45,635 nt of DNA, taken from positions 1 to 45,635 of the forward strand of contig JACCVY010000144.1 in the NCBI GenBank assembly GCA_013697915.1, written 5' to 3'. The notes below the pieces were generated by a model. The model was given only the letters and a program-made list of their open reading frames with translations. It had not been told where the DNA came from and made no database searches. A program made the position numbers and the translations under genes. Within the stretch, counting starts at the first letter, position 1; every line of letters begins with the position of its first letter. Of this stretch, positions 27,380 through 29,228 are shown one piece after another. The DNA comes from Blastocatellia bacterium (GTDB taxonomy: Bacteria > Acidobacteriota > Blastocatellia > Pyrinomonadales > Pyrinomonadaceae).

Positions 27380-28069
27380 CTATTGCGCTATTGTCGATTG
27401 AAGTTTTGCAATCTCGGGATCGTGTTGCGCTTCACGCTGCAAAATTTCCGGCGCTGTGTCGTCAACGGCGGCTTCCTGTTTCAGCGTGCGCGCCAGCATC
27501 ACGGAACCAATGATTGCCACCAGCAAAAGGACACTGGCTATTTCGAAAGGCAGCGAACCATAACGATAAAGGCCGCTGCCCACACGTTCAGTTTCTTTGG
27601 TAATTCGCGAAGAGCCAGTCGCTGCTTCCGGAAGGTTTTGTTCGTCCGCAGTGCGCTGACCCGCCGCCACGGTTACCGCAGTCTCATCTCGTTTCTGCAA
27701 ACCTTCGTAGCCTACGTTGATGGCATAAAGCAGTCCGCCAACAAGCAACGCGCAGAAGATGACGCTGGTGGTTACCTGTCTCGGATGGTTGAAAATCTCT
27801 TCGCTGCCGCGCTCCTCCGAGCCGACATTCACCAGCATGATGACGAAGAGAAACAACACCATCACGCCGCCTACATAAACAAGAATTTGAACGCCGGCGA
27901 TGAACTCCGCGCGTAGCAGGATAAAGAGGGCGGACACCGAAACGAGCGAAGAGATTAGAAAGAGCGCGCTGTGAATGGTGTTGCGGGCCATCACGGTTAA
28001 GAGCGCCGCGAAGATGGCCGCGATGGAGAAAACCCAGAAAAAAACCGCTTCCCAGCCGGTCAGTATCAT
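27380..28069 (-). CDS. nuoJ: NADH-quinone oxidoreductase subunit J
   Basis: NuoJ is a five-helix membrane subunit of Complex I next to NuoK, including the helix whose pi-bulge moves during coupling. Typical segments are [40 protein letters not shown] and [11 protein letters not shown]. The 229 residues include a loop of about 70 residues before the last helix ([20 protein letters not shown]) and a charged tail. Its ATG overlaps the stop codon of the upstream four-helix-bundle gene by four bases (ATGA), so its translation may be coupled to that gene instead of directly to nuoI. Confidence 0.95.
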
Positions 28070-28491
28070 TGCCGATTGCCGATTGCCGATTGCCGATTTG
28101 AAATTACTTTGGAATCCCGAGGTGTTGACTTAATCTGTTTTAGAGCCCTTGATGCTGAAATTCGAGAACGCGCCATAATTTTTCTTAGTTCAATGGCTTC
28201 CATAAGTAACGCTTCTACCTTCTGCACCTTCAAGAGCCCAGCTTCTATGATCAATTCCATCCAGAACGCGCTCTCATCAGCTTCTTCTTCGACTATGCCC
28301 AGCTTCGCTATGAATTCTGCCTTCGATCTGCCCCGGCATGCGGCTCTGTAATTAGCGGCGACCGCAGTTCCGGCTCGCACTAGTTGGTTGCCAATGGCGC
28401 GCCCTTCAACCGTATTTGGCAAAGCGGCAACTAGTTTAAGAACCCGTAGCGCAAACTGTTTCGTACGCTTCTTTAAATCGTCAGCCTTCAT
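28066..28491 (-). CDS. four-helix-bundle protein (S23/IVP-like) inside the nuo operon
   Basis: A small soluble all-helical protein matching the four-helix-bundle family first known from 23S rRNA intervening sequences and related to Avd of diversity-generating retroelements. Diagnostic segments are KRTKQFALRVLKLVAALP, GNQLVRAGTAVAANYRAACR and SKAEFIAKLGIVEEEADESA. Biochemical function is unknown. I start it at the ATG at 28491; the longer frame to 28572 is translated repeat. The last 13 codons also read through a repeat ([13 protein letters not shown]), and the stop overlaps the nuoJ start. The gene lies between nuoI and nuoJ, which normally adjoin, and is bounded by inverted copies of a CGATT-word repeat. 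This suggests insertion as a unit. Confidence 0.85.
   Translation of the reverse strand: MKADDLKKRTKQFALRVLKLVAALPNTVEGRAIGNQLVRAGTAVAANYRAACRGRSKAEFIAKLGIVEEEADESAFWMELIIEAGLLKVQKVEALLMEAIELRKIMARSRISASRALKQIKSTPRDSKVISNRQSAIGNRQ
28070..28103. repeat. left flanking repeat of the four-helix-bundle gene (GCCGATT words)
   Basis: Four successive near-copies of GCCGATT (GCCGATTGCCGATTGCCGAT and onward). It is the inverted counterpart of the AATCGGCAA-type repeat at 28533-28572 on the other side of the gene. It begins directly behind the nuoJ start codon and encodes the C terminus of the four-helix-bundle protein. Confidence 0.75.
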
Positions 28492-28532
28492 AGTTGTGCT
28501 GTAAGCAACAACTAGCGGCAACTTTGGGTGAT

Positions 28533-28572
28533 TCAGAAAATCGGCAATTGGCAATCGGAAATCGGCAATCAC
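28533..28572. repeat. right flanking repeat of the four-helix-bundle gene (AATCGGCA words)
   Basis: Words AATCGGCAA, TTGGCAATCGGAAATCGG and CAATC, reverse complementary in type to 28070-28103. It ends two bases before the nuoI stop codon region. Together the two repeats look like short terminal inverted repeats of a roughly 500-base unit. Confidence 0.75.
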
Positions 28573-28573
28573 C

Positions 28574-29107
28574 TTAGCGCGTGTACTTTACAGTCTCGCG
28601 TCCCTGCTCGAGCATCTCGCGATTCCAAACAAAACCGGCGCGCGAGTAAGTTGCCAACTCGAAATCCTGCGTCAGCTCCAGGCATGACGTCGGGCACGCT
28701 TCCTGGCACAGCGCGCAAAACATGCAGCGCGACGTATCGAAGATAAATTCGTCGAGCACTTTCTTCTTACGCGGCTTACCGGCGACGATGATCTCTACGT
28801 CCATTGCGAGCACGTCAATGCAATCTTCCGGACAAGCAATCGCGCAAAGGTTACAGGCAATACAAAGCGTGTCGTGCGTTTCGGGGTCCATATTGAGCCG
28901 CGGCGCGCCGTGGAAACGCGGCGCCACGTCCGGACGAACTTTGGGATACTGTTCGGTGTAAATGCCTTTGCCGGCGACTGAGTCCTTATCAAAAATGGCG
29001 CCAATGTTGTATTTCAAGGTGAGCCGCAGACCTTGTAATAGATCGGCCATGAAAAAGCGGCGAAGCTTGGTCATGAATTTAGGCTTGGGAACTTTTACTA
29101 AAGGCAT
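28574..29107 (-). CDS. nuoI: NADH-quinone oxidoreductase subunit I
   Basis: NuoI is the ferredoxin-like subunit of the Complex I peripheral arm that carries clusters N6a and N6b to pass electrons toward NuoB. Both 4Fe-4S motifs are intact: CIACNLCAIACPEDC at residues 82-96 and CMFCALCQEACPTSC at 128-142. The N-terminal amphipathic helix (LLQGLRLTLKYNIGAIF) is the usual membrane contact. At 177 residues its length is normal. Downstream, the four-helix-bundle unit separates it from nuoJ; upstream a 122-base palindrome separates it from nuoH. Confidence 0.96.
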   Translation of the reverse strand: MPLVKVPKPKFMTKLRRFFMADLLQGLRLTLKYNIGAIFDKDSVAGKGIYTEQYPKVRPDVAPRFHGAPRLNMDPETHDTLCIACNLCAIACPEDCIDVLAMDVEIIVAGKPRKKKVLDEFIFDTSRCMFCALCQEACPTSCLELTQDFELATYSRAGFVWNREMLEQGRETVKYTR

Positions 29108-29228
29108 AAGTCAATTTCCGATTGTCGATTTCCGATTACCGATTTAAACACATTGCGTAGCGTAGCGGTTCTGGTTCAACTTTGCTCATCTTTCCAATCG
29201 GCAATCGGCAATTGCCAATCGGAAATGG
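29108..29228. repeat. nuoH/nuoI junction: CGATT-word inverted repeat without a gene
   Basis: Left words TTTCCGATTGTCGATTTCCG and ATTACCGATT (29114-29143) are opposed by CCAATCGGCAATCGGCAATT and GCCAATCGGAAA (29193-29226), around about 50 bases. The words are the same as those flanking the four-helix-bundle gene at 28066-28572, so this looks like a gene-free version of that unit in the adjoining junction. Confidence 0.75.

Follow-up and report, generated by a model that had tools for sequence, protein, structure and literature searches.

The window analysed here, a stretch of 45,635 nucleotides from a Blastocatellia bacterium, raises the question of why a small four-helix-bundle gene framed by inverted repeats lies between nuoI and nuoJ, and of what kind of unit the gene and its repeats make up.

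The element at the nuoI–nuoJ junction and gene-less hairpins

A first-pass annotation of the sequence had placed an S23/IVP-like gene, distantly related to Avd, inside a respiratory operon, and both the family and the host were confirmed. The gene product matched Pfam family PF05635 (E 2.5e-15), TIGR02436 and the PDB structure 2rld (E 2.3e-15) and, with a profile score above the cut-off and the four-helix-bundle fold (PF05635, TIGR02436), it belongs to the S23/23S_rRNA_IVP family. AlphaFold modelled the 141-aa protein as a helical bundle with high confidence (pLDDT 92.6), which fell only in the tail encoded by the repeat arm. The model matched two structures of pentameric S23 proteins (2rld and 2gsc), and a weaker match was obtained with Avd (4dwl). 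The Avd model NF033474 gave no match with the window protein, and a relative scored below its cut-off.

Read along the minus strand, nuoH is followed by a short hairpin, nuoI, the element and nuoJ (Table 1). Two inverted tandem heptamer arrays (TTGCCGA...TCGGCAA) enclose the S23 gene in one hairpin, the arms (28068–28099 and 28538–28569) being 94% complementary over 32 nt and lying 438 nt apart. TRF returned a period of 7 for both the 3' arm (28068–28098, 4.4 copies, 100% match) and the 5' arm (28539–28570), and the gene had an inverted-repeat (IR) score of 27, where the threshold was 13. These terminal repeats are able to form a stem around the ORF (RNA fold z = −2.8), while no Rfam family matched in the window. 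Inverted repeats of CGATT words had been described as bounding the gene; the inverted arms stood, but the repeats proved to be 7-nt arrays and not just CGATT words. Orthologues at this junction have their start codon where the window copy has the ATG at 28491, which is M28 of the 168-aa long ORF, so the first 27 codons of that ORF are probably not coding. At the other end, the 3' arm encodes the tail and stop of the protein, as the first-pass annotation had it, although the count is the last 11–12 codons and not 13; this tail (NRQSAIGNR) is common to most orthologues at the junction. The layout proposed for translational coupling of nuoJ, an ATGA overlap of the bundle-gene stop and the nuoJ start, was also found.

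Table 1. Positions in the window of the nuoI–nuoJ element, the neighbouring nuo genes and the short hairpins
Feature	Positions	Strand	Remarks
Short inverted heptamer hairpin GTCAGTA/ACTGACA, nuoL–nuoM junction	24202..24313		
Short inverted heptamer hairpin AGGTGTC/CTGACAC, nuoK–nuoL junction	26887..26960		
nuoJ	27380..28069	-	
Element at the nuoI–nuoJ junction	28068..28570	-	
S23/IVP four-helix-bundle gene, 141 aa from conserved ATG	28066..28491	-	ORF open to GTG 28572; stop overlaps nuoJ start as ATGA
3' arm of element, tandem heptamers AATCGGC x4.4	28068..28099	-	encodes C-terminal codons of the bundle protein
5' arm of element (gene sense), inverted tandem heptamer array GATTGCCGATTTCCGATTGCC	28538..28570	-	inverted-repeat and tandem-repeat search
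nuoI	28574..29107	-	
Short hairpin, nuoH–nuoI junction	29109..29228		
Arm of gene-less short hairpin, nuoH–nuoI junction	29109..29145		word identical in G004 and G006
Partner arm of gene-less short hairpin, nuoH–nuoI junction	29195..29228		
nuoH	29230..30558	-	
Short inverted heptamer hairpin GTCAGTT/AACTGAC, near nuoC/nuoB	32361..32439		
Short inverted heptamer hairpin AAATAGT/ATTTACC	43658..43759		

The hairpin at the nuoH–nuoI junction carries the word of the nuoI–nuoJ element on arms (29109–29144 and 29196–29231 in the inverted match) that are 83% complementary, with 51 nt and no gene between them (RNA fold z = −3.6), in agreement with the earlier observation of matching words around some 50 bases. 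The two had been read as an occupied and an empty unit side by side; occupied and gene-less versions of one unit do fit, but the nuoH–nuoI hairpin is not a local empty copy, because it is also present, with an identical word, in two related genomes (G004 and G006). Short hairpins are frequent in the window's genus, both in the window itself and in G004, which has 17.9 arrays per 100 kb, and their words matched S23 arms of their own genus in 44% of cases; when sets of equal size were drawn from other genera or other phyla, the figures were 11% and 16%, respectively. No heptamer arrays were found in 345 kb of three genomes that have no S23 gene, and some S23-rich genomes (G042 and G017) have almost none outside the elements. 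Ribosomal genes in G004 are flanked by two ordinary separate hairpins. Next to nuoM, a 92-bp unit with flanking 7-nt words forms a tandem duplication (22290–22479, 2.1 copies, 96% match).

Framing of S23 genes across bacteria

S23 genes were gathered regardless of repeats from the window's own genome (all 12), G004 (17), the family, a range of phyla (80), Gammaproteobacteria and cyanobacterial plasmids, mainly from higher-scoring matches, so that divergent subfamilies are under-sampled. The IR score was the best ungapped inverted match between the left and right flanks within 350 nt, with a cut-off of at least 13, and intervals shifted within the same loci served as controls. Inverted repeats at this cut-off framed 9/11 S23 genes in the window's genome (0/20 shifted intervals), 15/17 in G004 (0/34), 22/25 in the family (1/48) and 57/77 (74%) across phyla, where 3/273 shifted intervals (1.1%) reached the same score. 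Framing was also found at 18 of 24 gammaproteobacterial S23 loci and for all seven S23 genes on annotated cyanobacterial plasmids. A pooled second pass with a purpose-built profile gave matched inverted arms within 350 nt for 163/201 S23 genes (81%) from many phyla, a figure that, like the other genome-wide statistics, rests on sampled loci, mostly on draft assemblies and on elements that are not independent in descent. The expectation that bundle genes elsewhere would be flanked by inverted word repeats thus held for about 80% of them; the other 20% or so have no detectable arms (e.g. L002, L008, L084 and L085), suggesting that some subfamilies may be settled genes. When the IR test was applied to Y1/RAYT genes, which are framed by REPs, 23/28 had inverted repeats, with essentially no heptamer signal, indicating that the method detects known framed genes and that, in this comparison, heptamers set S23 genes apart.

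Among 161 unique elements, the period of the arms was 7 nt in 133, 8 nt in 14 and 9 nt in seven, the median arm was 29 nt and the median total length 488 bp. The 5' arm had more G than C in 147/161. In only one of the 161 did both arms have separate partners of their own, which makes the gene the loop of one hairpin, and two ordinary hairpins flanking a bundle gene by coincidence were rejected. The comparison of these loci establishes both how general the framing of S23 genes is and its architecture. Ninety-eight words occurred among the 133 heptamer elements, aligned by a conserved A–G step. Arms matched each other within 99% of the elements and in 1.5% of random element pairs, while the word was shared in 75% of pairs with at least 80% amino acid identity and in 1–2% of those below 60%; word and protein thus travel and diverge together. 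Some elements have 9-nt (Saprospiraceae) or 8-nt units (Granulicella, Balneolaceae) in place of 7 (L151, L108 and L152), and one planctomycete S23 gene (L159) has arms of nearly 200 nt made of GTGGACG-type heptamers.

Site turnover, probable mobility and competing explanations

The occupant of the nuoI–nuoJ junction differed among relatives, and the gene is not universal there. Five close relatives have the same gene (59–64% by tblastn) with AATCGGC-type words, and G014 has a different S23 gene with AATGATG words. In G004, whose nuoI is 98% identical, the gene is absent and a 103-nt hairpin with another word is present; G006, G011 and others have short hairpins with other words, and all that remains in G007 is 25 nt, which include part of the 3' arm. 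Presence and absence likewise alternated when further element sites of G000 were compared with relatives, and those of G004 with G000, the absent sites being mostly occupied by other hairpins, including RAYT-type REPs. At none of the sites compared was a clean empty target with its duplication recognised with confidence, since other hairpins usually stand where the element is missing. At one site (EL9) the word had changed while the gene was retained. In EL9 and other slots of these sister species (L181, L360–L372), REP hairpins, heptamer hairpins and S23 elements have been swapped.

Whole units recur at unrelated sites. Two elements in G004 (L077 and L081) are 83.5% identical in DNA over 534 bp, the homology starting inside the 5' arm and ending just past the 3' arm, with unrelated flanks, and a similar pair in G066 (L214 and L229) also lies at unrelated sites, with homology ending at the arms. 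Across five genera, elements with the word GTGATGA, whose proteins are about 70–77% identical, occupy sites that are not syntenic. Such features characterise a unit that is copied or transferred together with its arms, in keeping with the first-pass idea of a unit spreading with its repeat; they were seen in relatives and not in the window copy itself. Copying of the unit is well supported by these comparisons, and the duplications, together with the turnover of sites, point to mobility. Genomes have up to 17 S23 copies with different words, and elements are present on plasmids. No enzyme for movement is encoded by the element. Reverse transcriptase-dependent (Avd-like) movement was rejected, reverse transcriptase (RT) being missing from 21/33 bundle-rich genomes.

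The dN/dS values of orthologous pairs (0.02–0.15) indicate purifying selection on the protein. Between co-directional neighbours, with one simple ORF caller used throughout, S23 elements were sense to both neighbours in 83 cases and antisense in six, as compared with 4:4 for RAYT genes and 85:48 for small ORFs. This sense bias fits expression by read-through or a step at the RNA level; alternatively, it could result from selection for expression and not from movement through RNA. A framed S23 gene of Nostoc edaphicum plasmid pNe_5 (L407) lies antisense between nrdB and nrdA. On other cyanobacterial plasmids (L406 and L410), heptamer-framed S23 genes separate cas6 from cas4 in CRISPR operons (the Anabaena 90 operon is of type I-D), and such genes may account for reports of 23S_rRNA_IVP as a CRISPR-linked family.

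We consider it probable that the unit represents a mobile hairpin element that is widespread and of the intervening sequence (IVS) type, about 490 bp long and lying between protein genes, in which a 5' heptamer arm, an S23 four-helix-bundle gene and an inverted 3' heptamer arm follow one another. Lying in sense within the host operon, it would be expressed by read-through, and the transcript would fold so that the gene becomes the loop of a long stem, which RNase III may cut as it does in 23S IVSs. The bundle protein, whose family fold is that of pentameric Avd/S23, would recognise the arms of its own element, folded as RNA or single-stranded DNA, and be needed for the spread or maintenance of the element, and gene-less hairpins with matching words would be non-autonomous derivatives. 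The architecture, the matched element-specific words, the purifying selection, the differences in occupancy at orthologous sites and the whole-unit duplication edged at the arms can be read from the sequences; recognition of the arms by the protein, RNase III processing and the route of movement we infer.

Alternatively, a Y1 (RAYT/TnpA) transposase might act in trans on the arms as its substrates, with the bundle gene as cargo in a REP-like hairpin. The numbers of bundle and Y1 genes correlate among 60 genomes of the family (rho 0.72, partial 0.67), RAYT genes have the same layout, and a given site may hold a REP hairpin in one genome and a heptamer hairpin in another. However, the repeats that flank RAYT genes are not heptamers, two genomes with 6–7 bundle genes (G039 and G060) have no Y1 match, orientation differs between the two kinds of gene, and cargo capture does not predict that the enclosed gene should always be S23, as it was in our samples; we regard this alternative as unlikely. 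We think no better of the proposal that the unit is not mobile now and that its hairpin is an RNase III processing or stability site of the operon, bound by the S23 protein as a host regulator. The sense position between operon genes, the strong purifying selection, the long RNA stem at both nuo junctions and the RNase III cleavage of IVS stems (PMC4990558) would all agree with it, whereas the patchy presence at orthologous sites, the duplication of units, the many copies per genome with different words and the presence on plasmids argue against it.

That heptamer arrays expand by slippage around any tolerated intergenic gene, the S23 gene being incidental, seems very improbable: arrays are indeed common in some genomes, such as G004, and words turn over fast, but even in array-poor G017 and G042 framing extends to all eight of the S23 genes sampled, no heptamers accompany RAYT genes of similar size, and arms match only within an element. 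Chance or ordinary terminators deserve practically no weight. Inverted repeats are common near bacterial genes, but the shifted intervals and mismatched flanks, with the strict 7-nt period, rule this source out.

Going beyond the single mobile hairpin element, we tentatively suggest, with somewhat less than even confidence, that many intergenic heptamer arrays of prokaryotes are footprints of one unrecognised mobile class whose sole gene is the S23 bundle. The 7-nt register would be what allows the protein to recognise the arm of its own element, with the result that the two diversify together, no encoded transposase, recombinase or reverse transcriptase would be needed, and 23S IVSs would be the special rRNA case. 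In our reading, a widespread IVS-like mobile hairpin element is the likely source of many prokaryotic intergenic heptamer repeats that are otherwise unexplained. Once heptamer arrays and S23 genes are linked, each acquires a role that can be tested, and the presence of S23 genes in cas loci (PMC3936711, PMC10910872), nrdBA and par operons would have a simple explanation, in that they may be passengers. If the protein reads a 7-nt register, its mode of repeat recognition would be new and would co-evolve with the target.

Relation to known systems

The nearest counterpart is the IVS of 23S rRNA in Coxiella and Leptospira, in which the same protein family lies inside one hairpin with terminal inverted repeats. 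The Coxiella IVS, 428 nt in total and cleaved by RNase III, has an S23 ORF in a 28-bp stem, with tandem GACAGAT heptamers next to the ORF; this IVS has been discussed as a possible mobile element, and its S23p is apparently not made (PMC4990558). Our element is classed as IVS-like outside rRNA, since its plan seems to be that of the Coxiella IVS as well. The first-pass statement that the family is often inserted in 23S rRNA has no example in our sample, where no fetched locus matched rRNA and the window copy lies between nuoI and nuoJ. In contrast to 23S IVSs, the elements described here are intercistronic in protein operons, many per genome, each with its own heptamer word.

Avd of diversity-generating retroelements (DGRs) has a related fold (4dwl, 8ub7), and relatives of the window protein show weak family similarity to it, but our elements have no RT, TR or VR, most bundle-rich genomes lack RT, and only nuo genes adjoin the window S23 gene. 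REP/RAYT systems resemble them in having a small gene framed by inverted repeats and dispersed gene-less hairpins of matching sequence. They differ in that their gene is a Y1 HUH transposase framed by REPs, whereas the gene enclosed in the window is of the S23 family, an S23 bundle and not an HUH nuclease, with heptamer arms and in sense orientation in operons.

Heptamer repeats are known from intergenic and intron sequences of several groups. In Xanthomonas, each genome has 70–75 inverted pairs of GGGAATC heptamers, in which no mobile element was recognised (PMC4692102); in the P6b region of Nostoc trnL introns, TDNGATT and NNTGAGT heptamers replace one another (PMC4476775); and in the SPADE survey heptamers were the most abundant intergenic tandem repeats, their function not being given (PMC6344855). 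Among open-access journal papers, none linking heptamer arrays with S23 genes came to light apart from the Coxiella work, and the breadth of S23 framing and its link to heptamers are, to our knowledge, new. The unit length, the word types and the inverted pairs are the same as in our elements (PMC4476775, PMC4692102, PMC6344855), but whereas those papers found no associated gene or function, the arrays described here frame S23 genes, and a gammaproteobacterial S23 gene (L399) is framed by the Xanthomonas word GGGAATC itself.
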